Assembly (NCBI GenBank): GCA_947650365.1
Contig: CANTAL010000145.1
Span: 342,501-406,500 of the forward strand
Direction of reading: 5' to 3'
Source: Chamaelirium japonicum
Taxonomy: Eukaryota > Streptophyta > Magnoliopsida > Liliales > Melanthiaceae
Length of the DNA stretch: 64,000 nucleotides
The stretch's first letter is position 1. The number at the start of each line of letters is the position of its first letter. A program made the translations under genes and the position numbers. This document shows positions 17,636 through 47,470 of the stretch, piece after piece. Under the pieces are notes generated by a model. The model was not told where the DNA came from. It was given only the letters and a program-made list of their open reading frames with translations, and searched no databases.

Positions 17636-17861
17636 TGTTATAAGATCGTTCGATGGGATGGCTATCCACCGTAGGATCTTTCCCATGGATTATGGTTTCC
17701 CATAGATTATTTAGGCCCTAAGTAAGCTTATCCTATAAATAATATACGACCCTTTTCCTATAGATTGCTTAGGCCCTAAGTAAGCTTACCCTATAAATAA
17801 TATACGACCCTTTTAAGGTGGGACACATTTGACGACTCTCTTTTTTTCCCATCTAACTACA
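17636..17861 (+). mobile_element. LTR-like module with the same 58-bp duplication (226 bp)
   Basis: Second copy of the duplicated form: TATAAATA at 17,734-17,741 and 17,792-17,799, total length again 226 bp. It is the equivalent of 12,211-12,436 in the next 5.9-kb tandem copy. PBS-like CGTTATCAGCACGAAC follows. Confidence 0.8.
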
Positions 17862-20615: not shown

Positions 20616-22085
20616 CTTCGTTTCTCTCTTTGTTTTCTTACGACTGGTCAGCTGAGCTCGATATGTTCATGCAAATAACATGTTCTGAGATAGGAGAAAG
20701 AGAGAGCCGTCAAACATGACCCACCCTAAAGGGGTCATATATTATTTATTATTTATAGAGTAAGCTTACTTAGGGTATAAGCAGTCTATGGGAATTCCTA
20801 ATCCATGGGAGAAGAGAGAAAAGAGTAGAGAGATTTAATTATATTATTGAGAAATAGAGTTTTGGAATTTAGATTACTTCTTACTTCACACCTGGACCCG
20901 TGGCCAATGTACTGGAGTAGGACTTCTTCTCTCTTTGTTTATCTCTCCGTTCTCTTCTCTCTTGTTCTCTCTCTTCTAATTTTGTTTCTCTCTCCATTTT
21001 ATTGTGACTGATCGGCTGGGCTCGACATGTTCGCACTGATAACGTATTGTGAGATAGGAAAAAGAGAGAGCTCTCAAATATGCACCACCCTAAAGGGGTT
21101 GTATAAATATTCAGAAGTTGGGTTTTGGAATTTAGATTCCTTCTAAGTACTCCACATCTATACTCGTGGCTAATAGACTTGGGCAGGACTTCTTCTCTCT
21201 TCGTTTACCTCTTCATTCTCTTCTCTCTTCTTCTCTCTCTTCTGTCTTCATTTCTCTTTTTATTTTATCTTCTCTTTTCTTCTCTGTCTTCTATCTTCAT
21301 TTCTTTCACTTGACTGGTAGGCTGGGCTTCACATATTTGTACTGATAACGTATTGTGAGGTGGAAGAAAAAGAGAGTCGTCAAACGTGCTCCATCCTAAA
21401 AGGGTCATATAAATATTGAGAAGTGGAGTTTTGTAATTTAGATTCCTTCTTACTTCACACCTATAACCATGGCCAATGGACTGGAGCAGGACTTCTTCTT
21501 TTTTCGTGCTGATAATGTTACTATAATTTTTTTTATTAAATTAATCATTTAATTAAAATGAAGAGAGTTTTGGAATTTACTATGATAATCATAATAACGT
21601 TGAGATGATACTATTGAGAAGTGAAGTTTTGGAATTTAGATTCATTCTTACTTTACACTTATACCCATAGTGAATGGACTGGAGCATGACTTCTTTTATC
21701 TTCTCTCTTTGTTTATCTCTCTATTATCTTCTTGTTTCTTATCTCCTTTCTATCTTCGTTTCTCTCTTCGTTTTCTTGCGACTGGTCGGCTAGGCACGAC
21801 ATGTTCGTGCTGATAATGAATTGTGAGATGGGAGAAAGAGAGAGCCATCAAACATGCCCCACCCTAAAGGGGTTGTATATTATTTATAGGGTAAGCTTAC
21901 TTAGGGCCTAAGAAATCTATAGAAAATCCTAATCCATGGGAGAAGAGAGAAGAGAACGGAGATATTTAATTATATTATTGAGAGGTGGAGTTTTGAAATT
22001 TTAATTCCTTCTTACTTTACTCCTATTCCCTTGGCGATTGCACTGGAGTAAAACTTATTCTCTCTTTTCTTTTTATTTATCTCTT
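20616..22085 (-). repeat. Minus-sense array units
   Basis: Counterpart of 14,641-16,070, offset by about 5,985 bp throughout, including TATTATTTATTATTTATAG near 20,740. No gene. Confidence 0.83.
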
Positions 22086-22720
22086 CATTCTCTTCTCTCT
22101 TCTCACAACATGTTATCAGCGCGAACATATCGAGCCCAGCCGACCAGTCCCAAGAAAACAATGCGAGAAACGAAGACAAAAGAGAGAGAAGAGAACAGAG
22201 AGATAAATGAAGAGAGAAAAAAGAAATAAAATATTTTTCATACTCATAAATTTATATTATTTATTTAATAAATATAAAATATTTTATAATTAAATATTTA
22301 AATATTAACATTGAGATAATACTATTTAAATATTTAGAAAAATGATATACTTTAGAATATTTAAAAAAATATTAATTGATATAAATAAAATAAATATGCA
22401 ATCTCCCATCTCACAATACGTTATCAGCATGAAAATGTCGAGCCCAATGAACGAGTCATAAAAAAAGGAAAGAGAAACGAAGATAGAAGACAGAAAAGGA
22501 GAGAAGAGAACGGAGAGATAAACGAAGAGATAAGATAGAATAAGTCTTGCTCCAGTCCATTCACCATGGGTATAGGTGTGAAGTAAGATGGAATCAAAAT
22601 TCCAAAACTCCACTTCTCAATGAATTTTTTGCTATAAAAATAACTTATAATTTTCATTAAAAAAGTTTAAAACAATACAACTATTATAAGATCAATTGAT
22701 CGGATGGCAATAGACTGGAG
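22086..22720 (+). repeat. Plus-sense units with the 22.2-kb landmark and an LTR-like stub
   Basis: Third copy of the AT-rich landmark at 22,235-22,410. At 22,620-22,710 the phrase before an LTR-like module and its first 30 bases are present, then it jumps to a minus-sense body at ATAGACTGGAGCAGAAC. The inverse junction is at 61,090-61,190. Confidence 0.8.
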
Positions 22721-24385
22721 CAGAACTTCTTCTATCTTCTATCTTCGTTTATATCTCTATTCTTTTCTCTTTTCTATCTTCGTTTCCCTCTCTATTTTTA
22801 TTATGATTGGTCGACTGGGTTTGACATATTTGTGCTGATAACATATTGTAAGATGGAAGAAAGAGAGAGTCGTCAAACGTGCCCCATCTAAAGGGGTCGT
22901 ATATTATTTATAGGGTAAGCTTACTTAGGGCCTAAGCAATCTATGGGAAACCCTAATCCATGGGAGAAGAAAGAAGAGAACGAAGAAATTTAATTATATT
23001 ATTGAGAAGTGGAGTTTTGGAATTTTGATTCCTTCTTACTTCACAACTATACCTGTAGCTAATAGAATGGAGCAAGACTTCTTCTCTCTTCTCCTATTGT
23101 TTATCTCTCTGTTCTCTTCTCTCTTCTTCTCTCTCTTTTGTCTTTGTTTCTTTCTTTATTTTCTTATGACTGGTCGGCTAGGCTCGACATGTTCGTACTG
23201 ATAAAGTATTATGAGATAGGAGAAGAGGGAGCCGTCAAATATGCCCCACCCTAATAGGTCGTATAAATATTAAAAAGTGGAATTTTGGAATTTAGATTCT
23301 TTCTTACTTCATACCTATACTCGTGGCCAATGAACTGGAGCAGGACTTCTTCTCTCTTCTCTCTTTATTTATCTCTCCATTCTCTTCTCTTTTCTTCTCT
23401 CTCTTTTATGGAGTTTTGGAATTTAGATTCCTTCTTATTTCACACCTATACCCGTGTGAGAAGAGATTATTTAAATAATTAATTCTTAGTTCTCTTCTCT
23501 CTTTTCTGTCTTTATTTCTCTCTGTTTTCTTATGACTGGTCAGTAGGGCTAGACATGTTCGTGCTGATAACATTTTGTGAGATGGGAGAAAGAGAGAGCC
23601 ACCAAACATGCCCTACCCTAAAGGGGTCGTATTTTATTTATAGGGTAAGCTTACTTAGGGCCTAAGTAATCTATGGTAAACCCTAATCCATAGAAGAAAA
23701 GAGAAGAGAACGGAGAGCTTTAATTATTTTATTGAGAAGTGGAGTTTTGGAATTTAGATTCCTTCTTACTACACACCTATACCCATGGCGAATAGACTGG
23801 AGCAGGACTTCTTCTCTCTTATCTATTCGTTTATCTCTCTGTTTTCTTCTCTCTTCTTCTCTCTCTTCTGTCTTCGTTTCACCCTCAGTTTTTGTATGAC
23901 TAGTCGGTTGGGCTTGACATATTCGTGCTCGACATATTAGATTTCTTCTTACTTCACACCTATACCCATGGCCAATAGGTTGGAGCAGGACTTCTTCTAT
24001 CTTTTCTCTTCGTTTATCTCCCTGTTCTCTTCTCTCTTCTTTTCTCTCTTCTGTCTTCCTTTCTCTCTTTGTTTTCTTATGATTGGTCGGCTAGGATCGA
24101 CATGTTCGTGTTGATAATGTATTATGTGATAGAGAAAAAGAGAGTCGTCAAATATGCCCCACCCTAAAGAGATCATATAAATATTGAGAAGTGGAGTTTT
24201 GGAATTTAGATTCTTTCTTACATACTTTATTCTTATACTCGTGGTGAATGGACTGGAGCAGGACTACTTCTCTCTTCATTTATCTTCTCGTTTTCTTCTT
24301 TTTTCTTCTCTCTCTTCTGTCTTCGTTTCTCTGTCTATTTTCTTGTGACTGGTCGGTTGGGCTCGACATGTTAATGCTGATAATG
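22721..24385 (-). repeat. Minus-sense array units
   Basis: GACTGGTCGGCTAGG-type words near 22,808, 23,170, 23,540, 23,900, 24,090 and 24,347. Inverted counterpart of 59,369-61,089. No gene. Confidence 0.83.
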
Positions 24386-24553
24386 TGTTGTGAGATGGGA
24401 GAAAGAGAGAGCCATCAAATGTTCTCCACCCTAAAAGAGTCGTATATTATTTATAGGATAAGCTTATTTAGGGCCTAAGCAATCTAAAAGAAACCCTAAT
24501 CCATATGAGTGATCCGACGGTGGACAACCATCCGATCGAACGATCTTATAACA
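24386..24553 (-). mobile_element. Full 168-bp LTR-like module (minus sense)
   Basis: On the + strand it starts TGTTGTGAGATGGG and ends CGATCTTATAACA. AAACCCTAA is at 24,491-24,499. The PBS-like word lies to its left (TGCTGATAATG), as expected for minus sense. It is the inverted counterpart of 59,201-59,368. Confidence 0.8.
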
Positions 24554-24935
24554 GTTGTAATATTTTAAATTTTTTAAAGAAAAATATAAATTGTTTTTAA
24601 TGCAAAAAATTCGGGTGTGCCTCATCTTTCTTTTTTACTTCTTATTATTTAATTAATTTAATTAGCTTAATAATTTAATTAGCTTAATTTGATTATTTAA
24701 AAAAAAATTAAGTTATTTAAAAAATTATTTTATTATTTATATATTCAAAAAATTAATGTATTATTTAAATAACAAGTAAATAGTTATTGAATTAATATTT
24801 TATTTTATTACTTAATTAATAATTAATTTTTTTATTTATTTTAATTAATATTTCATAATTTAATAAAAAAAATTAATTATTTAATTATATAACCAATTTA
24901 TTAAAATTATTATTTTTTTAACTATATCTTCTTCT
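24554..24935. repeat. AT-rich block
   Basis: Starts with TTGTAATATTTTAAATTTTT and AATTCGGGTGTGCCTCATC, the reverse complement of the usual phrase, then near-pure A/T. Inverted counterpart of 58,741-59,200. Confidence 0.83.
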
Positions 24936-27517
24936 CTCTGTTCTGTCTTCGTTTCTCTCTCCGTTTTCTTTTGACTGGTCGGTTAGGCTCGATATGTTCG
25001 CGCTGATAATGCGTTATGAGATGGAAGAAAAAGAGAGCTGTCAAACGTGCCCCACCCTAAAGGGGTCATATATTATTTAAAGGGTAAGCTTACTTAGGGT
25101 CTATGCAATCTATGGAAAACCCTAATCCATGGGAGAGATCCGACGGTAGATAGCCATCCGATCGAACGTGCCCCACCCTAAAGGGGTCATATTAATTATT
25201 TATTTAAATAATTATTAAATCAATTCTCTTAATTAGTAAACTTACCTTATAAATATTAAATTATATATAATTGATTATCGCCATGGGTATAGGTGTGAAG
25301 TAAGAAGGAATCTAAATTCTAAAACTCCACTTCTCAATAGTATCATCTCAATATTATTATGATTATCATTGTAATGCTACTATAATTTTTTAATTAAATT
25401 AATTAATTCTTTAATTATTAAATAATTTAATAATTAAGTTTACTAATTAACGTGTTGTGAGATGGGAGAAAAAGAGAGCTGTCAAACTTCTCTCTTCTCC
25501 CATGGATTAGGATTTTCCATAGATTGCTTAGGCCCTAAGTAAGCTTACCCTATAAATAATATACGACCCCTTTAGGGTGGGGCACATTTACGGCTCTCTC
25601 TTTCTCTCATCTCATAACACTTACCCTATAAATAATATATGACCCCTTTAGGGTGGGGCACATTTGATAGCTCTCTCTTTCTTCCATCTCACAACATATT
25701 ATCAGCACGAATATATCGGGCCCAACCGACCAGTCGCAAGAAAACTGAGAGAGAAACAAAAACAGAAGAGGAGTTTTGGAATTTAGATTCCTTCTTACTT
25801 CACACCTATACCCGTGGTCAATGGACTGGAGCAGGACTTATTCTCCACATAAGAGAGAGAAGAAGAAAGAAGAGAACGAAGATATAAACAAAGACAGAAG
25901 AGAGAGATACGACTGGTCGGCTGGGCTCGATAGTAAGAAGTGGCACACCCGAATTGCTTAGGCCCTAAGTTCAAATATTAAAAGATACACCGTCGAATCT
26001 CTCCCGTAGATTAGGGTTTCCCATAGGTTACTTAGGCCCTAAGTAAGCTTACACTATAAATAATATATGGCCCCTTTAGTATGGGGCATGTTTAACGGCT
26101 CTCTCTTTCTCCCATCTCATAACACGTTATTAGCATGAACATGTCGAGCCCAGCGACAAGTCGTAAGAAAACGGAGAGAGAAACAAAGACAGAAAAGTAG
26201 AAGAAGAGAGAAGAGAATGGAGAGATAAATAAAGATGAAGAGAGAAGAAGTCCTGCTCTGGTCCATTGGCCATGGGTATAGTTATGAAGTAAAAAGAAAT
26301 CTAAATTCCAAAATTCAACTTCTCAATAATATCATTAAATCTCTCCATTCTCTTCTCTCTTCTCCCATGGATTAGGATTTCCCATAGATTGCATAGGCAC
26401 TAAGTAAGTGTACCCTTTAAATAATACACGACCCCTTTAGGGTGGGGCATATTTCATGGCTCTCTCTTTCTCCCATCTCATAATACATTATCAGCATGAA
26501 CATGTCGAGCCCAGCCGACCAGTCAAAAGAAAGAGGAGAGAGAAACGAAGATAAAAGAGAGAGAAGATGAGAGATGAGAACGGAAAGATAAACGAAAAGA
26601 GAAGAGAGAAGAAGTCATGCTCCAGTCCATTCACTATGGGTATAGATATGAAGTAAGAAGGAATCTAAATTTTAAAACATCATTTCTCAATAGTATCTTC
26701 TCAACGTTATTATGATTATCATAGTAATATTACTATAATTTTTTTAATTAAATTAATTGTTTGATTAAAACTAAGAGAGAAGGGAATTTACTATGATAAT
26801 CGTAATAACATTGTGATGATACTATTGAGAAAACTCTAATTCTCAGTAATATAATTAAATCTCTCCATTCTCTTCTATCTTCTCCCATGGATTAGGTTTT
26901 CCCAAGGATTGCTTAGGCCCTAAGTAAGCTTACCTTATAAATAATATACTATCCCTTTAGGATGGGGCATGTTTAATGGCTCTCTCTCTTTCTCCCATCT
27001 TATAATACATTATCAGCACGAACATGTCGAGCCCAGCCGACCCATCACAAGAAAATAGATAGAAAAATGAAGACAGAAGTGGAGTTTTGAAATTTAGATT
27101 CCTTCTTACTTCACACCTATACTCATGGCCAATTGACTGGAGCAGGACTTCTTCTCATTCTCTCTTCATTTATCTCTTCATTCTCTTCTCTCTTCTTCTC
27201 CTTCTTTTGTATTTGTTAAACTCCACTTCTTTTCTCAATAAACGAAGAGAGAAACAAAGACAGAAGAGAGAGAAGAAGAGAGAAAAGAACGGAGAGATAA
27301 ACAAAGTGAGAAGAGAAGAAGTCCTGCTCTAGTCCATTGGCCATGGGTATAGGTGTGAAGTTCTCTTTTCTATCTTTATTTATCTCTCCATTCTCTTTTC
27401 TCTTCTTTTGTCTTCGTTTGTCTCTCTATTTTTCTTATTACCGGTCGACTGGGCTCGACATGTTCGTGCTGATAACGTATTATGAGATGGGAGAAAGTGA
27501 GAGCCATCAAATATGCC
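24936..27517. repeat. Array up to the element 1 insertion
   Basis: Minus sense to about 25,190 (a partial LTR ends at ATCGAACG), AT-rich patch, then mostly plus sense (PBS-like words near 25,700, 26,125, 26,485, 27,015), then a minus-sense unit that element 1 interrupts at 27,522. Landmarks match 55.9-58.7 kb in inverted order (for example 25,945-26,000 with 57,660-57,725; 26,690-26,840 with 56,830-56,990). Confidence 0.82.
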
Positions 27518-27522: not shown

Positions 27523-27919
27523 TGTGGGGGAAAATCTTCGTGCCGACCCGAAGACCTCGCAGCACCAGTCAATTGATAGTTCGAGTTTAAGAGATCGTTG
27601 ATCGATCTGTCGATTGGAGTTACAGCTTTTGATATGTAAACAGAGAGATGTAATCAGAGAGTTGACACGATCTCGGAGTTCAGCCGAAGCCTACGTCTCC
27701 GTGCTATAGGGAGCAACCTGAATTCACTAACACTTGTATCGAAGTAATCTTGACAGGCCGAGTATCACTGAATCAACTTTGATCTCTTCAAAGGAGAGGA
27801 GAAGATCAAAGAGAGGTGGAAGATGGAAAGTTAAGAAATTCCAGAGCTCTGGTTCTGAAAATCAGATCTCAGAGTGGAAATCAGAATTTTTGGGATCCAC
27901 TTACATTCGAAGGCTCTGC

Positions 27920-27927
27920 TATTTATA
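27920..27927 (-). promoter_or_regulatory. TATA box of the 3' LTR
   Basis: TATAAATA on the - strand, directly downstream (in element direction) of the GC-rich U3 repeats. Confidence 0.75.
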
Positions 27928-27984
27928 GGATTCTCTAGGAGGAATTCCGAGGTAAATGGCGGTTTCTGCTATCGTATCTGGGGA

Positions 27985-28280
27985 TCCTCCAGGTAAGGCT
28001 GGTGGGTCCTGCTGTTGTCTTCGGGGGCCCACCAGGCAGGGCCGGTGGGTCCCGCGGTGGCCCTCGTGGGCCCACCAGGCAGTGCCGGTGGGTCCCGTGG
28101 TAGTCCTCGTGGGCCCACCAGGCAGGGCCGGTGGGTCCCGTGGTGGCCCTCGTGGGCCCACCAGGCAGGGCCGGTGGGTCCCGTGGTGGCCCTCGTGGGC
28201 CCGCCAGACAGAGCCGATGGGTCCCGTGGTGGTCCTCGTGGACCCACCAGGCAGGGCCGGTGGGTCCCGTGGTAGTTGGT
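27985..28280. repeat. 43-bp GC-rich tandem repeat in U3 of the 3' LTR, about 7 copies
   Basis: The period is 43 bp, with a core GGCAGGGCCGGTGGGTCCC followed by a variable GTGGTGGCC or GTGGTAGTC spacer. The outermost left copy is shortened and most diverged; the copy near 28,205-28,245 carries shared variants. Because the period is not a multiple of three and has no stop in several frames, it produces long Pro/Gly/Arg-rich reading frames on both strands that are not genes. Confidence 0.95.
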
Positions 28281-28311
28281 AAACTTCTGCCAAAATTTGC
28301 ACCCACAGTTA

Positions 28312-28319
28312 CCCCCTCC
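28312..28319 (-). promoter_or_regulatory. Polypurine tract of element 1
   Basis: GGAGGGGG on the - strand lies four bases before the 3' LTR, the position from which plus-strand DNA synthesis is primed. Confidence 0.75.
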
Positions 28320-28424
28320 AAGTTAGCTAGAGTTCATTCTGGCTGGCTTGGATTTGGTGCAAAAAATAGCAACTCCCTGTCGCAAAAGGCACGAAGAAGC
28401 TTGTCGCATGTTAGCATAAAAAGG
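28320..28424. other. Spacer between polypurine tract and tandem repeat
   Basis: Unique sequence internal to element 1; no gene or repeat seen. Confidence 0.5.
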
Positions 28425-29370
28425 ACTGACCGGTCAATTTTGATTGATCGGTCAATTTTGACCGATCGGTCAAAATTCAACCGGTCAAGGATCGGGTGAT
28501 CGGTCAAAAAACATGGTTTTTTGACCGATCCAGTAGGAAATTTGACCGATCGGTTGAATTTTGATCGATCGGTTAATTTTTGACCGATCGGTCAAAATTC
28601 AACCGGTCAAGGATCGGGTGATCGGTCAAAAAACATGGTTTTTTGACCGATCCAGTAGAAATTTGACCGATCGGTTGAATTTTGATCGATCGGTTAATTT
28701 TTGACCGATCGGTCAAATTTGACCGATCGGTCAAATTTTGACCGATCGGTCAAAATTCAACCGATCAAGGATCGGGTGATCGGTCAAAAAACATGGTTTT
28801 TTGACCGATCCAGTAGAAATTTGACCGATCGAATGATTTTAGCCGATCGGTCAAGTTTGACCGATCGATAAAAACTTATCCGGTCAAGGTTCGGGTGATC
28901 GGCAAAAAACCTTGGTTTTTTTTGCCAGATCCAGTAGAAATTTGACCGATCGGTTGAATTTTGATCGATCGGTCAAATTTGACCGATCGGTCAATCAAAT
29001 TTGACCGATCGGTCAAATTTTGACCGATCGGTCAAATTTTGACCGATCGGTCAAAATTCAACCGGTCAAGGATCGGGTGATCGGTCAAAAAACATGGTTT
29101 TTTGACCGATCCAGTAGAAATTTGACCGATCGAATGATTTTAGCCGATCGGTCAAGTTTGACCGATCGGTAAAAAATTATCCGGTCAAGGTTCGAGTGAT
29201 CGGCAAAAAACCTTGGTTTTTTGCCAGATCCAGTAGAAATTTGTCTGATCGAATGATTTTAGCCGATCGGTCAAGTTTGACCGATCGGTAAAAAATTATC
29301 CGGTCAAGGTTCGAGTGATCGGCAAAAAACCTTGGTTTTTTGCCAGATCCAGTAGAAATTTGACCGATTA
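28425..29370. repeat. Palindrome-rich tandem repeat of element 1, seven copies of about 120 bp
   Basis: The marker CAAGGATCGGGTGATCGG (or GGTTCG variant) recurs near 28,487, 28,609, 28,767, 28,886, 29,068, 29,187 and 29,306, a spacing of 119-122 bp except for two longer gaps of 158 and 182. The extra length in those gaps is filled by about two and three additional 20-bp units of the palindrome TTGACCGATCGGTCAA. The later copies carry a distinct variant (GGCAAAAAACCTTGG). The block lies between the antisense promoter and the polypurine tract. Confidence 0.95.
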
Positions 29371-29556
29371 GTTTAAAGTTTTGAACCTGCCCTTCAGAGA
29401 AGGTTTTTCAACTGTTTTGTTCTTTGATCTTCTGGCAGAGTTTCGAACATTGATGGAGCTTGATCCTTCCTATTTTGAATCTTTGGTTGGCTTGAATGTG
29501 GCTTTGAACCAGCGGTCCGGTTTACTCAGACCGGTGGCTCGCTTGGACCGTTGGTT
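29371..29556. other. Distal promoter region of the antisense gene
   Basis: Non-repetitive sequence with several GGACCG/CGGTCC words; an open frame here (29,381-29,656) has no conserved motif and ends before the TATA box, so I treat it as promoter DNA. Confidence 0.5.
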
Positions 29557-29678
29557 CACGTGGACCGGTAGGTCCGACGTTTCGTCTGGTCCGACGGTTC
29601 GCCTGATTTTGCGCTTGCTACGGATGGATGCCACGTGTTCCTACAAAAACACGTGATTTGATATAGTGAGGACACGTG
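29557..29678 (+). promoter_or_regulatory. Cluster of four G-boxes (CACGTG) upstream of the antisense TATA box
   Basis: CACGTG occurs at 29,557-29,562, 29,632-29,637, 29,650-29,655 and 29,673-29,678, all within 155 bases upstream of the TATA box. G-boxes are bound by plant bZIP and bHLH factors; the ACACGTGTC context also fits abscisic-acid response elements. Confidence 0.75.
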
Positions 29679-29711
29679 TCTTCTCGATCTGCGCGCCTGT
29701 TTTACCCTGGG

Positions 29712-29719
29712 TATATAAG
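29712..29719 (+). promoter_or_regulatory. TATA box of the antisense gene
   Basis: TATATAAG lies about 110 bases before the ATG on the + strand, giving an expected start near 29,745 and a leader of about 75 bases. Confidence 0.8.
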
Positions 29720-31763
29720 TTTTACTGGCTGTCATTTTTGCCTCACGCTTCCAAAATTTTTCGAAGTCTAGACTCTTCTGCTCTTGATCTCTTGTTCTTT
29801 GTTCTTGTTAGATCGGTCAAATGGCTTCCTTTGGTAGTTCAAAGAAGTCAGGTGGGGTTCCCTCGAAGAGGAAGGGGAAGGAAATTGTTGAGGTTCCATC
29901 CCCTCCGAAGGGTCGTGGCAAAGGCAAGGCCGTGCTTGCCGAACTTGGACAGCTGGGCAAAAGGCACCAAGGAGTAGGGTTTGCTTCAGCGCCATCGAGG
30001 CCAGAGCACATCCCTAAAGTAAAGTTTGTTTTGGGCCCGCTCACGTCTCTGACAGAGGAAACGGAGTACGTGTACAATACCGGTGGTGAGTTCACAGATT
30101 CGAAGAGAAAGAAGTGGCAAACACTGCTCTCTTACTTCACAGAAGGGAAAGTGCAGCCTTCGCTCCTAAGTATCCAGACTGCGTTTGGTATTGACAAGAA
30201 GACCGTCTTTACCAACTTTGCCAGTAATGAGCAGGTCATGGGAACCATCGTGACCATCGGCCAACTCAACTGCGGTTTGCGTCTTCCGTTGCCATCCTTC
30301 GCGGCAAGGTTATTGAACACTTCCGGCCTTTGCCCGGGGCAGGTCACTGGGAATGCCTGGAGAATTATCTACGCTTTCTGCCGCGTAGAGTCGGATTTCC
30401 AGGAGGATTTGAAGGCATGCTACTCCAGTATTCCAGAAGGTGAAGTTGCCCGGATCGAGCTTGGATATTTTTTCTTCCATTATCGATGGGCTTGAAGGAA
30501 GGACAGTCCGTTCTTCAACTTGACTGGCGTATCTCCGCTGCGCCCGCTTACCGACACAGTCCCTTCGGAAAAATTATACACAGACTGGCCCATCTCTGTT
30601 TCTGGTGCATGGACTCCTATCTCCGTGCCCGATACCCCTCGAAGCGATGTGCACGATGCAGTGAAGATGTACTGCGAGGGAGGCGCTTTTGCCTGGACCT
30701 CTGAGAGGGCTGGAGCTATCGACAATCTATTCCTTGAGTTGACCTGCGGGACCAGGTCATGGAAGCAGTTCTCAAACTGCCCAGTGAGATATGGTAAGGC
30801 CAATCTCCTCCACCGATCGCGAGACAGATATGAGGACAATGAAGTTTTATATTCTGACTATGAGGAGGATCCTCATTCGGGTAAGATCATCCAGAAGATT
30901 CGGGCTGAGAAGAAAGTTTATACTGCAAGGCGCCGATTGCCTACTGTGGAGGAGAAGCTGGTGATACAACGAGGCCCAGCGAAAAAGAAAAGAAAAATCC
31001 TCATCAAGCAAAAGGAAGATGAAGACAAAGAAAAGAAAGATGAAGATGATGAAGAAGAAAAAGAAAAGAAGGAGAGTGACGAGGAAGAAGAAGAGACCGA
31101 TAATGGCAGCCACGACAACGGTGGCAATGACGAAGACGATCGAGGATGGGGATGGTGAGAATGATCTTTCTTCCACCCCCTCTGGTGGAGATGGTGGGAA
31201 TGGGGGTGGTGAGGAAGAATTTCCTCCCACCCCCACTGGTGGTGCAGAAGAGGAAGATTCACTTCCTATTCCCATTGACGAGGCTAAAGCCCGTCAAATG
31301 GAAGGAGTCATGGATACAGAAGGTGATGGCCAAAAGGTGGTTCCCGCCTATCGGTTCGATGAGTTGAAGAAGCCAATGCGCCTCAAAATAAAATTGTCGA
31401 GGAGTGGTGGGGTTGGAAGCAACCCGACGCCCCTCGATCAAATTCCTCCTAAAGTTCCCTGTCTTGAAGGAGCGACAACGAGCGGGGGTATGGAGGTTGA
31501 GCAACCCCCACCCCCCTCTCGCTCTCTGGCTGAGGAGGTGGCTGCCATGGTGGCGGGACTCATCCAGCCAGGCGGGCCATAAGAGGAAGAAGGAGTCTCA
31601 CCTCCTCGGGATGCTTCCTCCCCTATTCACTTGGAGAGGAAAAGTCGCGTGGGTGATGGGGCTCCTCAACCTCAATCAGAGCCAACTCCTATCAAGGAGA
31701 AATCGACCCCTCAGGGTGGCTCCGATCGCGGGAAGGGAAAGGCTCCTCGAGCTGATGCCTCAG

Positions 31764-31845
31764 GTATCTATAGTAGTTTGCCTTGATTATTTGCCTTTGA
31801 AGTTTGAAAAGATTCTAACTCTTTGAACACTTGTGTTGATTGTAG
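31764..31845 (+). other. Intron 1 of the antisense gene (82 bp)
   Basis: Begins GTATCT and ends TTGATTGTAG; T-rich, with in-frame stops. Splicing after the first base of a codon restores a frame into exon 2. Confidence 0.85.
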
Positions 31846-31982
31846 GTGCGCCTGCTGGCTCGACTCAGAAGATGAAAGATTTGGGTGAGGTTGACATCAA
31901 CCACCCAACTACTGTAATCCGGAAGCTCTGCAACCTTCCGGAGGCTACTCTGGATGAAGCCTTCTACAGGCTTGAAGTGGTG

Positions 31983-32057
31983 GTAAGCGCATCTGTTTGA
32001 TCAACCATTTGAGTGGTGCCTTCGAAATAATTCTAACTCTTTTTGTCTTCTCTGCAG
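31983..32057 (+). other. Intron 2 of the antisense gene (75 bp)
   Basis: Begins GTAAGC and ends TCTTCTCTGCAG, a strong acceptor. It interrupts the frame between codons and leads directly into the coiled-coil exon. Confidence 0.88.
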
Positions 32058-32606
32058 AACTCATCCGTTTTGAACTTTGCGCGCAAGCTTTCTAGGAAGG
32101 CAGGAGAAAAAGATGCTTCGTCTGAAGTATCCCGCTTAACTGCTGAACTAGGGGTTGTAAGCGAGGAAAGAGATAAGCTGAGGGATCTTCTAACCTCAAA
32201 GAAAGAGGCATTGAAGGCCAAGATTGAGGCCCTTCGTAAGGAAAAATTGGAGAGCCAAGGGTGGAAAAGGGGCTACGAAGCTCGAGGTCATGAGCTTGAA
32301 GAGTTGAAGAATCGATTCTTCAGGATCGAGAACTTGGGTTTCAACCTTGCGGCTCGAATAAAGGAGCTGGAGGCTCAACTTGCTGCGAAGGATGCCGCTT
32401 CAGCAGCTAAGGAGGAAACTCTCAATAAGCAGTTGGAGCATGCGCTGATCGAGGGCAAGAGCTACAGGGAAACAGCTGAGAAAGCGGCAGAAGCACTCAG
32501 GGTCCATGCTGCTAGTGTCCGATCTTCCAAGGCATCGGTTGCGAGTAAAGCTCGCGGTGGATCCGAGGGAGAGAAGTCACGTGCACAAAGTGTGGCCAAA
32601 CCTTGA

Positions 32607-33210
32607 TGCACTTCTATCTTCTTTTTTGTTTTTGTGCTTGTAAACTCTTGATATGTAGCAGCTCAACATTGTACTTGGTAAGTTTTGATAATAGAAATCT
32701 TTTTGGTGTTTGAAAATTGAATGTCTTTTGAGTTGAATGCCTTCGAATATCATGTTCTGGATATCATTAGAATAGGTACAATCTTTTGAATGTAAGGGGT
32801 CAAGTCGCAACTTGATTACCCGAACTTGTAACTTGAACATTGAATTGGAATTCGTGTAACACTTGTATGTGAGGGGTTGAGTCGCAACTCAAGCACCCAA
32901 ACATGTTAGACGATATCGAAATTGATTGAAATTGAATATTGAAATTTGAAGGTCAATTTAACATTTGCCAGTAAGGGGTTGAGTCGCAACTCTAACACCC
33001 AAACTTGTTAAAAGACTTGGTAACTTGAATAGGGTCAGTTTAACATTTGCTAGTAAGGGGTTGAGTCGCAACTCTAACACCCAAACTTGTTAAAAGACCT
33101 GGTAACTTGAATATAGATAATTTGGAACTGCTTCAGAACTTGAATTGAAAAACTGAACATTTGCATATTTGAACATTTGAAAGAGAACTTTCTTCATCAT
33201 GGTATTTACA
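32607..33210. other. Spacer between convergent pol and antisense gene
   Basis: Both transcription units of element 1 end into this AT-leaning stretch. No reading frame is convincing. It contains the roughly 80-bp tandem repeat described separately, and TGTAA/TTGTACT words shortly after the antisense stop that could serve as plant 3'-end signals. Confidence 0.6.
32795..33115. repeat. Tandem repeat of about 80 bp at the 3' ends of pol and the antisense gene, four copies
   Basis: The recurring core is AAGGGGTTGAGTCGCAACTC followed by ACACCCAAACTTGTTA. Copies start near 32,797, 32,872, 32,973 and 33,054; the last two are nearly identical and 81 bp apart, the first two more diverged. Confidence 0.85.
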
Positions 33211-34290
33211 TCATGGATAGAATAACTTGAGATGTCTAGAATTCCAAGCTCGAGGCAATCTATCTCCTTCTGGTGAGATCAGTCTGTAAGAGCCTTTGCC
33301 TCCTACTGATTCGACAATGTAGGGTCCTTCCCAGTTGGGAGCTAGTTTTCCACTGCTATGCTCCTTAGTGTTGTAGAAAACAGCTCTGAGAACCAGACTG
33401 CCGATTGGGAATTGTCTCTTGTAAACCTTTTGGTCGTATGCTCGTTTGATCTTCTGCTGGTACTTGGCTACACGAAGGGAAGCTTGGTCTCGTAGTTCTT
33501 CAGAGAAGTCTAGATCATTGATCCGAAGTTCTTCGTTGATTCCTTCTTCAACTGCCCTGGTCTTCAGAGTATTTGATATGTTTTCTGTTGGGAGTACCGC
33601 TTCCGATCCATATGTTAGACGAAAGGGTGAGAACCCTGTTGATCTTCTCGGAGTTGTGCGATACCCCCAAAGAACTTCAGGTAGGACTTGTTCCCACAAT
33701 CCCTTTTTGTTGTTGAGTTTTTTCTTGAGTATACCCAGAATAGCTCTATTCGAAGCTTCGGCTTGACCATTGCATTGAGGATATCTTGGAGTTGAATAGA
33801 ATAGCTTGATACCGTTGTTCAGACAGAACTCTCGGAACTTGTCGGAGTCAAACTGAGCTCCATTGTCAGCAATAAGAACTTGAGGTGTACCGAACCTTGA
33901 GAAGATGTTGTGCCGAATGAATTTGATCACTTCGTCGTCAGTCTCTCGGAAGAGGGGCACAGCTTCAACCCATTTGGTGAAGTAGTCTGTGGCTAGCAGT
34001 AGATACTTCTTTTTGCTAGGGGTTGGTGGAAAAGGCCCCAAAAAGTCCAACCCCCATTGATGGAAGGGCCATGGACTTGATAATTGGTGAAGCTCATCTG
34101 CAGGGAGATGGATAGCTCGTGCGTATCGTTGGCATGGCTCACATCTTTGAACAACTTGGCGAGCATCTTTTGTCATTGTAGGCCAGTAGTAACCTTGCAG
34201 CTTCGTCTTGGCTTCAAGAGATCTTCCTCCCGAATGATTCCCACAAGCTCCAGAATGGATATCAATCAGGATGGCCTGTGCTTGCTCGGG
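33211..34290 (-). pseudogene. Integrase domain of element 1
   Basis: A zinc-binding HHCC set (H1611, H1618, C1649, C1652) precedes the core. The DDE triad is D1681 (WGLDFLGPF), D1741 (ADNGAQF) and E1777 (GQAEASN), with exactly 35 residues between the second Asp and the Glu. The C-terminal part has GKLAPNWEGPY, the GPY/F module of Ty3/gypsy integrases. No chromodomain follows, as expected for the Tat group. The frame ends in RHLKLFYP at a TAA near 33,211. Confidence 0.94.
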
Positions 34291-34527
34291 ACCAAGGCAC
34301 TTGAGCAACATCCCGTTGTGAGATTTGAAATATAGATCTTCTCCTTGAACAGTATAGCAAGGAAGTTTTCTTTGAAGTCTTCGAGCTTGATTGGGATCTT
34401 CTGGTACTTTGCCATATTTGAAGAAGTCAAAAATCGACTGTCTCCAATCTTCAAACTTATTTGTAGTAAGGCTTGACCTCAATTGATCTCCACCCCCAGA
34501 TCTCTTAGAAGTAGCAAGGATCTGTTG

Positions 34528-36465
34528 ATCGGGGATGGTCTTGGGTATTTCTTGATAATCGATCTGTATTTGCCTTCCTCCGAGTGAGTCTCCCAGAACT
34601 GAGGCCGCATTGGCTAAGGCATCTGCTTCTCGGTTCTCTGCTCTTGGGATTTGAACGAACTCAGTAATAGTAAAACATTGTTGAAGACATCGTACTAAGG
34701 CTAAATAGAGTTGCATTCTTTCTTCACGAGCTGTATACTCTCCATTGATTTGCCTTATGATCAACTAGGAGTCGCTGTATATGATGATTCGGTCTACCCC
34801 CAGGGATTCCGCCATTTCGAGTCCAGAAATGAGAGCTTCGTATTCGGCTTCGTTGTTGGTGGCGTTGAACCCTAGGAGAGTGGCCTTATGTAGATGATCA
34901 AATTCGGGGGATACTAAGACTATCCCAGTTCCCGAACCGATCGAACTTGAAGCTCCATCAGTATAAAGCTTCCATGGAGGAGTTGCAGCAATAGCTTTGA
35001 GACCTAGATCAATTTTTGTTGCAAGGTTGATCGGAGTATTGTCCTCATCTTCTAAGCGCATGTCGACATCTTCTTCCCAAGTGATGGGGTCTTCAACTGG
35101 GAAGTCAGCTAGGAAATCAGCAACTGCTTGACCTTTGATAGAAGTGCGAGATTCGAATTGAATCCCCAGAGCACTCATTTCGATCACCCATTTGGTCATT
35201 CGACTAGCCCTACCAGCTTTGTCAACAATATCTTTGAGTGGGTGTTCAGAGATGACAGTGATCTGGTGGGAGATGAAATAGGGTTGTAGACGACGTGATG
35301 CAGTGAGTAAGGCCAGTATGACCTTCTCAGTTTTTGAGTAGCGAGTTTCAGCCGGAAGAAGAGTGTGGCTGATATAATAGACTAGATGCTCTATGCATTC
35401 TCTCCTACTAACTAGGACCGCACTGATTGCTTGATCAGTGACGGCGAGATAAAGCCATAAGTCTTCTTCTGGAAGTGGAGCCGTCAAGATAGGAGCTTGC
35501 ACCAGATATTTCTTGATGCTTTGAAATGCTTCTTCACAGATTGGACTCCAGCCGGATGTATCCGCCTTTCGTAGTTTGTCGAAGAGGGGTTTGCACTTGT
35601 CGGAAGATTTTGAGATGAATCGATTGAGTACTGCTAACCTTCCAGTGAGGCGTTGAACTTCTTTTCGATTTGTAGGTGAAGGCATATCCAGAACTGCTCG
35701 GATTTGGTCGGGATTAGCTTCGATACCCCTCCTGGTCACAAGGTGACCCAGGAATTTGCCCGATTAAACTCCGAAAGCGTACTTAGCTGGATTGAGCTGC
35801 ATACGATATTTTCGAAGAACTTGAAAGGTTTCCGCCAGATCGAAAAGATGCTTGCTTCGCACGGAGCTCTTGGTGAGGAGATCATCGACATAGTCTTCGA
35901 CGTTGCGACCGATCTGGTTTTCGAACATCTTGGTGACTAGCCTTTGATTGGTAGATCTGGCATTTTTGAGACCGAACGGCATTACATTGTAGCAGTAGAG
36001 ACCTCGGCTAGTCACGAAGCAAGTCTTCTCTTGATCGTCTGGATGAAGTGGAATTTGATTATATCCAGAATACCCATCCATGAAAGACAATAGCTCATGG
36101 CCAGCAGTGGCATCGACGAGTCTATCGATCCTTGGCATGGGAAATGGGTCTTTGGGGCAAGCCTTGTTGAGGTTGGTGAAGTCGATGCAGACTCTGACTT
36201 TCCCATTCTTCTTTGGAACAGCAACTATGTTAGAGATCCAGGTAGGATACTCTACTTCACGGATGAAGCCTGCTGCGAGTAGCTTGGTGATTTCTTCTTG
36301 AACAACAACTTGTAGCTCTGGTCGGATGGTGCGTGGCTTTTGCTTGACAGGCTTCACCTCTTCTTTGATCGCAAGTCGGTGACAAGCGTCATCTGGATTG
36401 ATACCAGGCATGTCTTCGAAACACCAGGCGAAGACGTCGATATTGGACTGGAGGAAGGATACCAT
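34528..36465 (-). pseudogene. Reverse transcriptase and dual RNase H of element 1
   Basis: RT motifs appear in order: VPKKNGKVRVCIDFTNLN, SFMDGYSGY (Asp at codon 1004), VMPFGLKNA and the YVDD box (codons 1066-1069, 35,881-35,892). The residues after PFGLKNA read RSTNQ whereas element 2 has GSTYQ, so two conserved positions are altered. Next come a Ty3-type RNase H/connection (TDQAISAVL, ISHTLLPAETRYSKTEK) and a second, archaeal-like RNase H (YTDGASS with D1377, NNEAEYEAL, SDS, then READALA). A second RNase H is a hallmark of the Tat lineage. Stops lie at 35,764 (after the RT core) and 34,765 (inside RNase H 2). Confidence 0.93.
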
Positions 36466-36687
36466 GTCTTGCGCTTCTGCGTCGCTAAGACCGGTACCAA
36501 TAAATGTTTGTTGAGGGAGATCTCCACTGACGATATTGATAGGGATGATTTCTTCAATTGAAGGTGATGCTTCCCATTCGATTGGTGGAGGTTCGGTCAG
36601 CGGAATCTCCTTTGATTGCTATTTGGAAGAGGGATCAGCTTCATCTCGTGGCCGCTTTGGAGGAGCAATGTTGATCTTTCGATCTGT

Positions 36688-37170
36688 CTTTGCCGCAGCA
36701 GCCTCACAAGACCTTCCAGTTTGCTGATTACCTCGAATGCAGACGATGCCTTCTCCAGTTGCAAACTTGAGTAGTTGGTGATAAGAGGAGGAGATGGCAT
36801 TGATTTGGTGGAGGAATGGTCGCCCGAGGATGGCGTTGTAGCTGGATACTCCTTCGACAATTGCAAACCTGACCGAGACTTGAGTCTCTAGGCTGAGGTC
36901 GAGAGTGAATCTCGATTCACCCACCGTGATGCTTTGTTCGCCGTTGAAGCCAGTGATCACGGTCGGGACGACGTCGAGGCTTTGATATTTATGTCCCAGA
37001 CATTTGAAGCAGTCTGAGAACATAATGTCGATAGAACTCCCGGTGTCGATGAGGATCCGATTGACGGTGCTTCCGTCGATGATGAGTTTCAAAACCAGGG
37101 GGTCTCGATGTGGAGTATGAACTCCTTGAAGATCAGTGTCGTTGAAGACGATGGACGGCCAAGAAAGACC
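36688..37170 (-). pseudogene. Aspartic protease domain of element 1
   Basis: The catalytic DTGSS motif is at codons 681-685 (D at 37,045-37,047), preceded by hydrophobic RILI and followed by the flap-side word ILGRPFLHQ. This is the retropepsin-like fold that cuts Gag-Pol. The TAG at 36,619 lies between protease and RT. Confidence 0.9.
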
Positions 37171-37287
37171 TTCGATGGGCTTCTCGATCCAGGTATCTTC
37201 TTTGTTTGCAGTAGATCGAACATGGAAGATGCGCCGAATCTGCCGATCGACTTCTTTCCTGATCACTGCTTGATTGTGCAATGATCC

Positions 37288-39087
37288 ATGAATGCCAAAG
37301 ATATTGGCATTCACGGTGAGAGATGATGGGTTGGAAGAGATTTGATGAATCCAGCAAGCCTCTTTCCCCTTTGCAGAGGATCGACGTTGATCTTGTCCTT
37401 CTCTGGTGAATTCATGGAGGTGGCCTTCTCTCAGCAAGTCTTCGAGATGAAACTTTAGCCGATAGCACCGATCGGTGGAATGGCCATGGCTCCGATGGAA
37501 ATCGCAATAAATAGTTTTGTCGGCAGTGAACTTTGTGTTAGGCTGAAGTGGATTGGGCCTTCGAAGGAATTCCTCGTGTTGAATGCGGTCGAGTATTTGT
37601 TCGACCGGTATATTCCACTCGGTGAAAGTGGTCTTTGTTGGAGATCGACGCCCATCATTCTTTGATCGTTTGTTGGCTGGAGGGGCTGCTGCCTCAGCGT
37701 TGTGAGCCTTGGCAGCATACTTGGGAGCTTCTCTCTCCGTAGGCCTTCGTTTTGTTTCTCGCCCTTTCCGAGCGACTTGATCGTCTTCGACCTCGATCTC
37801 TCTCTGGATTCGATCGAACATACCACCCAGAGAAGGAGGGGGATTGCGGATGAAGTCATTGTAGATGTGTAGATCGAAGCGGAGAGCATTCTGGAAAGCC
37901 AACATGATGGCTTCATCATCCAAATGTCTTCCAGAGAGGGCAGCATGCTCGTTGCGAAACCTCCTAGTGAAACTTCGGAGAGTCTCGTCAGCACCCATCC
38001 TTAGCCGATAGAGAGAGTCGAGCTTCTTCTCGGGCTTCAGATTGAGCTGATAATGCTGCACGAAGAGTTAAGCTAAAACATCGAACTGGGTGATGGACCC
38101 TGCTCGGAGATTGTGATACCAGTCGAGCGACGGCTCATCGAGACTTCCCGCAAAGGTGCGGCAGAGTACATTGTTTTCTTCTTCGTGCGGCGTCAAGGTT
38201 TGCTTGAAGGCAAGTATATGGAGAGTTGGATCTCCTCTGATGAAGTTGAATTTGGGGAGGATAGGAGTTCTCCATCCCCTTGGAAAGGTTGTCTCGAAGA
38301 GACTTCGATGGAGATGTCCGGCGGATGAATACCCATCTCTACGACCGTGTCCCCGACCTAGATGCGGGTCAAGGGGCAAGATTGCAAGGTCTTGTTCTGG
38401 CATTGAAGTATTTGCCGGTTGAAGTCGATGTCGAAGGTCCGATCCAAGTCCACGTTGAAGTGGAATGGAAGGAGAGACTCTACTCTTTGAAGGAGCGCCT
38501 TTCATTTGGTGCTTCCTTGGTGTGTTGAGTTTTGAAGGTTCCCTTTTGTCGCAGTTGCGGCCAGAAGAAGATTGAGAAGACTCGTCATCGAGACGGTCCC
38601 AAACACTCTGCTTCCAAGGGGTAGCAGAGGGAGTTGGGTCACGTCGAATCCTCTCGAGGGCAGCAGTACCCATTGACCTCTGTTGCTCGGAGTGGATTGA
38701 ATGTCGAGGAAGATCGACCCTCTCACTTGTAGAGGGGATAGGTAGAGCAATCCCAGCTTCGGAAGCTGCTCTCTTGAGAGCATCCCTCTCGGCGGTGAGG
38801 GTGGCATTTTGCTTCGCCAATTGGAGGAGTTGGAAGTCGACCGCCGAAATTTGATAGGTCGATGGAGGATCTTCAGCTGGAGCGGGGGCTGTTTGCCCAA
38901 TTGACTGTCGTGCGGGATGAGAGATCGGTCGATCGACATATCTCCCACTCTTTGACCGAACCCCCATCTCCGGGACAGCAAGGGGCTGTCCGAAGTTGAG
39001 CCTTTGACTCATTGAACGAGTCTTAGGACGAGCTTGTTGTTGAGTGTTACTTCCTTCTGGTTGACCCTGGTGTTTGGTTCTCGGCAT
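37288..39087 (-). pseudogene. Gag region of element 1
   Basis: Codons 1-600. The N-terminus is basic and Gln-rich, followed by a short coiled-coil-like stretch (about residues 90-120, LLQLAKQNATLTAERDALK). The capsid core holds the retrotransposon Gag words SLDWYHNL, HYQLNLKPEKKLDSL and LRSFTRRFRNEHA. A zinc knuckle with C528, H531, H536 and C541 (CDFHRSHGHSTDRC) is the form used by Tat/Athila Gags. An in-frame TAA splits the capsid region at codon 340; element 2 has sense codons there. Gag would package the RNA in cytoplasmic particles. Confidence 0.9.
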
Positions 39088-39231
39088 TCAGAGGACGAAG
39101 GGTGCAATGAGAGTGCCAACGTCCGATCAGTTGTCTGATCAACCGAGAGGGCGAGGAAGTTTGGCTATCAAGATCGGTTGTATGCTCAACCGATCAAGTA
39201 GTAGTGGAGAGAGCTTGACTTTTTGCTCGGA
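39088..39231 (-). other. Untranslated leader of element 1 between PBS and gag start
   Basis: About 145 bases separate the PBS from the ATG at 39,085-39,087. The stretch contains GATCGGTTG/CAACCGATC-like words, echoing the palindromic words of the 28.4-29.4 kb repeat, but no other feature. Confidence 0.6.
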
Positions 39232-39248
39232 TCCCACAGACGGCGCCA
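39232..39248 (-). promoter_or_regulatory. Primer-binding site of element 1
   Basis: In the element direction TGGCGCCGTCTGTGGGA begins three bases after the LTR. The TGGCGCC start (complement of a CCA-ending tRNA tail) and the position define a PBS. Similar PBS strings occur in Tat/Ogre-type elements, for which tRNA-Arg is the reported primer; I could not verify the tRNA here. Confidence 0.85.
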
Positions 39249-39658
39249 AACTGTGGGGGAAAATCTTCGTGCCGACCCGAAGACCTCGCAGCACCAGTCA
39301 ATTGATAGTTCGAGTTTAAGAGATCGTTGATCGATCTGTCGATTGGAGTTACAGCTTTTGATATGTAAACAGAGAGATGTAATCAGAGAGTTGACATGAG
39401 AGATGTGATCTCGGAGTTCAGCCGAAGCCTACGTCTCCGTGCTATAGGGAGCAACCCGAATTCACTAACACTTGTATCGAAGTAATCTCGACAGGCCGAG
39501 TATCACTGAATCAACTTTGATCTCTTCTAAGGAGAGGAGAAGATCAAAGAGATGTGGAAGATGGAAAGTTAAGAAATTCCAGAGCTCTGGTTCTGAAAAT
39601 CAGATCTCAGAGTGGAAATTAGAATTTTTGGGATCCACTTACATTCGAAGGCTCTGCT

Positions 39659-39666
39659 ATTTATAG
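39659..39666 (-). promoter_or_regulatory. TATA box of the 5' LTR (gag-pol promoter)
   Basis: TATAAATA on the - strand, conserved in both LTRs of element 1 and in the LTR of element 2 (47,868-47,875). Transcription would start about 30 bases further left and run through U5 and the PBS into gag. Confidence 0.8.
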
Positions 39667-39727
39667 GATTCTCTGGGAGGAATTCCGGGGTAAATGGCGG
39701 TTTTTGCTGTCGTATCTTGGGATCCTC

Positions 39728-40060
39728 CAGGTAAGGCTGGTGGGTCCTGCTGTTGTCTTCGGGGGCCCACCAGGCAGGGCCGGTGGGTCCCGCGGTAGCC
39801 CTCGTGGGCCCACCAGGCAGGGCCGGTGGGTCCCGCGGTGGCCCTCGTGGGCCCACCAGGCAGGGCCGGTGGGTCCCGCGGTAGTCCTCGTGGGCCCACC
39901 AGGCAGGGCCGGTGGGTCCCGTGGTGGCCCTCGTGGGCCCACCAGGCAGGGCCGGTGGGTCCCGTGGTGGCCCTCGTGGGCCTGCCAGACAGGGCCGATG
40001 GGTCCCGTGGTGGTCCTCGTGGACCCACCAGGCAGGGCCGGTGGGTCCCGTGGTAGTTGG
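39728..40060. repeat. 43-bp GC-rich tandem repeat in U3 of the 5' LTR, about 8 copies
   Basis: Same repeat as in the other LTR with one additional copy. The first, penultimate and last copies are recognisably the same in both LTRs, so the gain or loss happened in the interior copies. Confidence 0.95.
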
Positions 40061-40088
40061 TAAACTTCTGCCAAAATTTGCACCCACA

Positions 40089-40093
40089 CCACC
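40089..40093. repeat. Target-site duplication of element 1, right copy (CCACC)
   Basis: Same five bases as at the left boundary. The array sequence resumes with CCTAAAGGGGTCGTATATT, the continuation of the unit broken at 27,522. Confidence 0.9.
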
Positions 40094-44142: not shown

Positions 44143-45243
44143 TTATTCGAACATCTTCATGACTAGCCTTTGATAGGTCGATCCAGCATTTTTAAGGCCG
44201 AATGGCATTACGTTGTAACAGTAGAGACCTCGGTCTGTCACAAAATATATCTTCTCTTGATCGTCCGGATGTAGCGGGATTTGAATATACCCAGAGTATC
44301 CGTCCATGAAAGATAGGAGCTCGTGGCCAGCAGTGGCGTCAACGAGTCTATCTATCCTTGGCATGGGGAATGGGTCTTTAGGGCAAGCACTGTTGAGGTT
44401 GGTGAAGTCGATGCAGACCTTGATTTTGCCATTCTTCTTAGGGATAATGACTATGTTGGAGGTCCAAGTAGGGTACTCTACTTCACGAATGAAGCCTGCT
44501 GCGAGTAGCTTATTAATCTCCTCATGAACTGCAGCTTGTCGTTCTGGTTGGATTGTGCGTGGTTTTTGTTTGACGAGCTTCACTCCTTCTTTGATTGCGA
44601 GCCGGTGACAAGCATCCTTCGGTTTGATCCTGGGCATATCTTTGAAACACCAGGCGAAGACGTCAATGTTGGATTGAAGGAAGGATACCATGTCACGCGC
44701 TTCTGCGTCACTGAGACCGTTACCGATGAAGGTTTCTCGAGGGAGATCTCCACTGCCGATGTTGATTGAAATGATTTCTTCGATTGAGGGCGAGGTCTCA
44801 TGTTCGATTGGTAGAGGTTCGGACAGTGGGATCTCCTTTGGTTGATATCTTGAAGAAGCTTCATCACTTGGTCGCTTCGGGGGGATGAGATTTATTCGGT
44901 GATGTGTTTTTGCAGCTGCCGCTTCGTAAAATCGCCCGGTTTGTTGATCTCCTCGGATGCAGACGATACCCTCTCCTGTTGCAAATTTGTGGAGTTGGTG
45001 GTAGGAGGAGGATATAGCATTGATCTGGTGGAGGAAAGGCCGCCCCAGGATGATATTGTAGTTGGACGTTCCTTCGATAATGGTGACTCTTACGGAGACT
45101 CGAGTCTCTCGACTGAGGTCGAGGGTGAATCTTGATTCTCCTATTGTTATGCTCTGTTCCCCGTTGAAGCCCATGATCACGATCGGGACAACTTCGAGGC
45201 TTGTATATTTATGTCCCAGGCTCTTGAAGTAGTCTGAGAACAT
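44143..45243 (-). pseudogene. Protease C-terminus and RT N-terminal half of element 2
   Basis: An uninterrupted 366-codon stretch covers ILGRPFLHQ, the linker, and RT motifs IPKKNGKIKVCIDFTNLN, SFMDGYSGY and VMPFGLKNAG. It stops (TAA) after KMFE. This segment was useful to infer the ancestral codons at the stops of element 1. Confidence 0.88.
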
Positions 45244-47467: not shown

Positions 47468-47470
47468 AAC

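Follow-up and report, generated by a model that had tools for sequence, protein, structure and literature searches.

A second RNase H domain (aRH) is unique to the Tat clade of plant Ty3/gypsy retrotransposons, and its placement between the first RNase H (RH) and the integrase is the arrangement of Ogre and Retand elements (PMC6317226). In a survey of Retand elements, antisense open reading frames (ORFs) with a TRP28 domain (Transposase_28, PF04195) were described in 97% of the clusters, along with further antisense ORFs whose matches were Smc-like or of other kinds, the function being given as unknown (Vicient 2025, PMC11963269). The Grande element carries gene23, whose transcription is driven by an upstream promoter of its own and whose product is a nuclear protein; the review in which it is described urges that antisense and spliced transcripts be examined (Vicient and Casacuberta 2020, PMC7264820). 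Here we describe an antisense gene in a stretch of 64,000 nucleotides of the Chamaelirium japonicum genome (contig CANTAL010000145.1, positions 342,501 to 406,500), which we will call the window. The gene is very probably an antisense accessory gene of a long terminal repeat (LTR) retrotransposon of the Tat/Retand type, organised like an ordinary host-type gene. Such a gene, and the family to which it belongs, were already known in kind, while its conserved introns, its conserved pair of G-boxes and the union of Transposase_28 and coiled coil in a single gene appear to be new.

The gene is encoded on the plus strand, in the interval that separates the 3′ LTR from pol; pol itself is on the minus strand. 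Four G-boxes of sequence CACGTG (29557–29562, 29632–29637, 29650–29655 and 29673–29678) are followed by a TATA box on the plus strand (TATATAAG, 29712–29719) and by the start codon ATG at 29821. The coding part of exon 1 (29821–31763) contains the Transposase_28 match (residues 144–189), the sequence PAKKKRKIL and an acidic and proline-rich linker. Intron 1 (31764–31845, 82 nucleotides, CAG/GTATCT to TTGTAG/G, phase 1) leads to the 137-nucleotide exon 2 (31846–31982), and intron 2 (31983–32057, 75 nucleotides, GTG/GTAAGC to CTGCAG/A, phase 0) to the third and last exon (32058–32606), with 182 codons and a TGA stop, predicted to be long, helical and coiled-coil-like. Both introns have TTCTAAC before their AG end, the CTAAC starting 31 and 25 nucleotides before the end of introns 1 and 2, respectively. 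When 31764–31845 and 31983–32057 are removed, the end of exon 1 and exons 2 and 3 form a single frame. The GC content of the introns is 0.32 and 0.40, versus 0.57 for the end of exon 1, 0.53 for exon 2 and 0.50 for exon 3. The open run of 182 codons in exon 3 is longer than any in 1000 random sequences (maximum 166); the run of 224 codons that opens exon 1 exceeds the 99th percentile (206) and is below the maximum (255). A codon-usage scan trained on gag-pol separated the antisense frames poorly and was left unused. The original prediction, made from the sequence of the window, had listed four CACGTG boxes upstream of a TATA box, an ATG, a pair of GT-AG introns with consistent phase and a coiled-coil last exon, all of which are present, and had pointed to antisense ORFs of the Tat lineage, some with Transposase_28; an antisense Transposase_28 gene is a published feature of Retand (PMC11963269). 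It had also called the unit complete, which the window copy is not: exon 1 contains in-frame stops at 30493–30495 and 31580–31582 and a frameshift near 31.14 kb. The window copy is a decayed member of its family, unable to make the full protein.

Other copies were sought in the same genome with the Transposase_28 model, which, at E values up to 1e-3 and with 150 of 5978 candidates scored, gave at least 137 matches, all of those listed scoring above the curated cut-off. The first 20 of the 137 listed matches, picked by Transposase_28 score alone, formed the comparison set. The antisense unit is carried by 19 of these loci, the twentieth (L090), which has a short shared piece, being without it and counted only in the 20. 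Across promoter, exons and introns, 18 loci can be aligned. The nineteenth carrier, L101 (G000:C10:42132500-42137100), is more divergent, with about 66% identity in exon 1 and both introns (76 and 77 nucleotides) located by eye, and stands outside the splice-site, indel and substitution-rate alignments. The 18 aligned copies plus L101 are the 19 divergent copies of the promoter counts, chosen by protein domain; a separate set of 29 close copies was chosen by promoter similarity. Together with the window, the 18 aligned copies fall into six clusters at 90% exon 3 identity. Viral contigs yielded no relatives with exon 1, exon 3 or reverse transcriptase (RT) queries.

By comparison of these copies, the conserved parts of the unit are seen to include a promoter block of the TATA type with a pair of G-boxes, two introns whose positions and phases are fixed, and the putative splice signals. 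Homologues with the same exon structure, on which the gene model of the original prediction depended, do exist, and the introns are kept in the 18 aligned copies. The donor is GT in all 18 at both introns, the acceptor AG in 17 of 18 at each, and exon 3 ends in TGA in every copy. Relative to the window, 20 of 21 exon indels in the 18 copies are multiples of three, shared events being counted again in each copy, as against 16 of 74 intron indels (two of 48 in intron 1 and 14 of 26 in intron 2). Among the 16 copies aligned from the ATG, eight have an exon 1 that is open until a stop 20 nucleotides into intron 1, one stops 28 nucleotides before the donor and seven break earlier, while the unspliced frame of exon 3 hits a stop in intron 2 (16 of 18 copies) or late in exon 2 (the other two). 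Large open-frame values among matches to the joined peptide of the three exons had hinted at translation through the introns; in the 18 copies and the window, none of the introns is read through. A candidate processed copy, L102 (G000:C4:65932400-65934100), was also rejected: a deletion across the border takes the last part of intron 2 together with the first part of exon 3, which leaves a continuous-looking match over exons 2 and 3, and intron 1 is present.

The protein, as the same comparison would have it, consists of a Transposase_28 part, a basic KKKRK motif and a coiled-coil-like tail, and its gene is convergent to pol. Pfam Transposase_28, which the original prediction had named as a search target, is matched by the first 224 codons at an E value of 4.1e-5. 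For the start of exon 1 (first 223 codons), the ratio of nonsynonymous to synonymous substitution rates (dN/dS) has a median of 0.09 and a range of 0.05–0.44, and is below one in all 151 usable pairs; for exon 3 the median is 0.18, the range 0.07–0.53, and 167 of 167 usable pairs are below one. Pairs were left out if dS was 0.02 or below or could not be computed (2 of 153 for exon 1, 4 of 171 for exon 3), and the exon 1 values are based on 17 of the 18 copies, L086 being left out for having more than one stop. In the 15 pairwise comparisons among six cluster representatives, exon 3 has a dN/dS of 0.13–0.24, and four of the five other frames have medians of 1.20–1.67 in the same pairs, the shifted forward frames giving 1.25 and 1.26. 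Stops are absent from exon 2 in 17 of the 18 copies and from exon 3 in 16. Comparison of the copies thus indicates that the antisense protein has been under purifying selection. The KKKRK motif, near residue 386, is present in all ten copies whose frame gets there, and we take it, as well as the PAKKKRKIL of the window, to resemble a classical nuclear localisation signal. From this motif, and by analogy with published proteins, the product may have a nuclear role. An AlphaFold model of exon 3, made from a single sequence, contains helices at residues 17–131 and 136–166, with ten-residue means of the predicted local distance difference test (pLDDT) of at least 85 over residues 21–130 and lower values outside; for this model no viral match was found at an E value of 0.001. 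The Transposase_28 piece alone gave no usable model (mean pLDDT 33). Exon 3 also matches SMC-related models, though weakly (best E value 1.5e-4, 20.5 bits versus a cut-off of 300), which is to be expected of a coiled coil.

In all 18 aligned copies the C-terminal end of pol is located downstream of exon 3 on the opposite strand, so that the unit, host-like in its promoter-like block, exons and introns, converges on pol, as had been proposed. The pol end is 91–96% identical to that of the window in 14 copies and 46–79% in the other four; the nonsynonymous distance (dN) of exon 3 to the window is 0.09–0.22 across the five other clusters. This suggests that the antisense protein evolves faster than pol in most copies. 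From a convergent gene it might also be imagined that the antisense RNA is the useful product, acting as double-stranded RNA, through small RNAs or by interfering with the transcription of pol, and that the protein is incidental, a possibility raised by Vicient and Casacuberta (2020, PMC7264820). However, the low dN/dS values of 0.09 and 0.18, the frame-keeping exon indels and the kept splice sites together point to selection on a spliced protein, and the coding part, at least, stops short of pol, its stop codon reaching to 32606 and the end of pol lying at 33211. We regard this explanation as unlikely.

The conserved core promoter block of the antisense gene (29560–29779, plus strand) has a mean identity of 0.84 when six cluster representatives are compared in all 15 pairs, against 0.625 for 29380–29559, 0.76 for both the start of exon 1 and exon 3, and 0.74 and 0.68 for the two introns. 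In 20,000 dinucleotide shuffles of 29380–29820, four CACGTG words never occurred and three were reached by one shuffle. The G-boxes at 29632 and 29673 are CACGTG in 18 and 17 of the 19 divergent copies and in 27 and 24 of the 29 close copies, respectively. The box at 29557 is CACGTG in one divergent and 25 close copies, and that at 29650 in one copy of each set, its usual word being CACGCG (12 of 19 divergent, 23 of 29 close copies); the third G-box of the window therefore looks like the result of a C-to-T change at a CpG. Some further copies among the genome-wide matches to the G-box pair also have CACGTG at 29650. Judged by their conservation, only the two boxes at 29632 and 29673 are old. 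The conservation foreseen in the original prediction thus holds for these two, and a functional set of all four boxes is not supported, the other two being CACGTG in one of 19 divergent copies each. The old pair is spaced by 41 bases in 15 and by 42 in two of the 17 copies that keep both, which is about four turns of DNA. In L101 neither old box is kept and both read CATGTG, the change expected from CpG decay. The CpG of both old boxes is kept in 18 of 19 copies, versus a mean of 0.42 over 25 CpGs of exon 3; several other CpGs of the promoter are kept equally well. Genome-wide, the pair TGCCACGTGT-N(20-40)-GACACGTGTC has 2,107 exact matches (1,068 forward and 1,039 reverse), and a control has none. 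The words GCCACGTGT and GACACGTGTC resemble what we take to be the abscisic acid (ABA)-responsive element (ABRE), and through its G-boxes the gene may respond to light, ABA or stress in the host. Both LTRs of the window element are devoid of CACGTG, so the antisense and LTR promoters probably have different inputs.

The conserved block could instead serve the sense strand, in packaging of the genomic RNA, plus-strand priming or 3′ processing, its likeness to a promoter being a coincidence. Its place is indeed between the 3′ LTR and pol, the G-boxes, as palindromes, are strandless, and the 3′ flank of the gene is as well conserved as the block itself. The TATA box, however, is on the plus strand, 102–125 bases upstream of the ATG wherever it is present, and it shares that strand with the splice signals and the selected frame, which makes a sense-strand role quite improbable. 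A host gene recently captured by one element, and foreign to the element family, would account for the host-like promoter and introns, but the same gene is found at the same place beside pol in 18 of 18 aligned copies, the G-box pair occurs in more than two thousand places, and antisense Transposase_28 ORFs are general in Retand clusters (PMC11963269). We give recent capture very little credence; an ancient capture of a whole gene may have taken place. That open frames, GT-AG pairs and CACGTG words merely came together by chance as an element decayed, for which the two stops and the frameshift of the window copy might speak, is hardly credible in view of the shuffling result and of the same features being conserved in divergent copies.

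Judging from the alignments, this is apparently a real gene that selection has maintained, and the reading of the unit as an antisense accessory gene has to be weighed against several observations that count against it. Splicing and promoter activity are both inferred from conservation. The copies were all drawn from a single genome, at the head of its domain ranking, and as 14 of the 18 copies belong to one cluster, there are about six independent lineages, the window included. In the window itself, Transposase_28 scores 24.2 bits, under the curated cut-off of 26.2. The reverse-strand frame of exon 3 that shares third positions with the coding frame also has a low median dN/dS, 0.31, and in intron 2 a majority of the indels (14 of 26) have a length divisible by three. 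High conservation is not peculiar to the promoter, the 3′ flank at 32607–33000 having the same identity of 0.84 as the promoter block. An exact TATAWA is present in only 11 of the 19 divergent copies, with the TATA core in five more. Finally, a search for processed copies, with the peptide joined from the exon 1 end and exons 2 and 3 as the query, gave 433 matches, and among the approximately 150 listed there was no exactly intronless copy.

If the antisense accessory gene works as its layout would predict, host G-box-binding factors of the basic leucine zipper (bZIP) or basic helix-loop-helix (bHLH) type would recruit RNA polymerase II to the antisense promoter, the antisense pre-mRNA would be spliced in the nucleus, and the protein would go back into the nucleus, where it could oligomerise through its coiled coil and bind element DNA or RNA, thereby regulating the element. 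Its introns would outlast retrotransposition, the genomic RNA holding their complement, which would be unspliceable; antisense orientation alone would therefore keep such a gene intact. Antisense introns that survive retrotransposition would mark a gene that is necessarily transcribed on its own strand, and would explain its backward placement. Going further, we tentatively propose, as an idea that may well prove wrong, that two antisense ORFs of Retand, the one with Transposase_28 and the 'Smc' coiled-coil one, are exons of a single spliced gene, a full transcription unit of host type, carried backwards since only that orientation would pass introns and a second promoter through the RNA cycle, and that the G-box pair, in its approximately two thousand places, would link this element regulator with the light or ABA signalling of the host, apart from the LTR promoter. 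Were the gene spliced, ORF-based surveys would have split it and missed the full protein, and the correct exon model would yield the right protein for testing. The fixed pair would also amount to a large dispersed set of potential sites for host transcription factors.

The Retand TRP28 ORFs resemble the window gene in being antisense between pol and the 3′ LTR, in a region with tandem repeats (PMC11963269). In that survey they were obtained as separate ORFs with ORF Finder, whereas here TRP28 and the coiled coil would be exons of one gene, preceded by a conserved G-box pair; the word 'intron' occurs zero times in the text of the survey, and no promoter motif is reported in the parts consulted (PMC11963269). 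SMC-like matches, as exon 3 weakly has, are also known for PvRetro13, in its antisense ORF2, and for Retand clusters, in their antisense 'Smc' ORFs, but there the coiled coil is a separate ORF, while here it is the predicted last exon of the TRP28 gene (PMC7264820, PMC11963269). Grande gene23 (Gomez-Orte et al. 2013, as reviewed in PMC7264820) is, like the window gene, an antisense accessory gene in a long 3′ region; its promoter activity and localisation were measured, whereas for the window gene both are predicted from sequence, and the review, in the parts consulted, mentions neither introns nor G-boxes for gene23 ('intron' occurring zero times; PMC7264820). Ogre elements, of the Tat clade in angiosperms, also have an intron, which is in sense, in contrast to the antisense introns of the window (PMC6317226). 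Among the top matches of a literature search that did not take in the text of Gomez-Orte 2013 and Kejnovsky 2006, we recognised no report of introns or G-boxes in the antisense gene, nor of Transposase_28 and a coiled coil as one spliced gene.

The element that carries the gene, in a genome of 1.52 Gb, is a single LTR retrotransposon at 27,523–40,088. Its 3′ LTR (27523–28307, 785 bp) and 5′ LTR (39252–40088, 837 bp), both on the minus strand, are bounded by TG and CA and flanked on both outer sides by CCACC, the five-base target site duplication, and a purine tract precedes the 3′ LTR. The LTRs differ by 15 mismatches over 785 aligned positions, corresponding to a Kimura two-parameter (K2P) distance of 0.019, and by gaps of 9 and 43 bases. 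If substitution rates are, as we assume, 1.3e-8 or 7e-9 per site per year, insertion took place about 0.75 or 1.4 million years ago, respectively. Both LTRs contain GC-rich 43-bp tandem repeats (27989–28273 and 39727–40054), with one extra unit in the 5′ LTR, which accounts for the 43-base gap. A tandem array (28424–29368) of near-palindromic GACCGATCGGTC units of the GACCGATCGGTCAAA type separates the 3′ LTR from the antisense promoter and lies directly upstream of the latter.

The gag-pol region (33211–39087, minus strand) consists of multiple ORFs with Pfam matches to protease, RT, RNase H, a second RNase H and integrase, the protease match being weak and under the Pfam cut-off; gag (38068–39087, minus strand) is named from its position and has no Pfam match. 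Along the minus strand the domains follow in the order RT, RH, second RNase H, H2C2 and rve. In the ORF at 34765–35739, RT_RNaseH_2 and RT_RNaseH cover residues 64–189, and RVT_3/RNase_H begins around residue 258 and extends into the next ORF. The element has both RH and aRH, which defines Tat, with aRH between RH and integrase as in Ogre and Retand, and it has the Retand trait of an antisense Transposase_28 ORF between pol and the 3′ LTR; the original prediction had likewise placed the unit inside a Tat element. The second RNase H part matches 43 bacterial and archaeal loci, assumed to be RNase H genes, in line with its identity, in a search that was not aimed at antisense relatives. An older second related element is present at 42555–48170 on the same strand, 77% identical to 34328–39520, and the antisense gene region was not found with it. 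The regions 15000–27500 and 40089–50000 contain many diverged repeats, with GA/CT-rich units in both orientations and a spacing of often about 131 bases, among which the element appears to have inserted.

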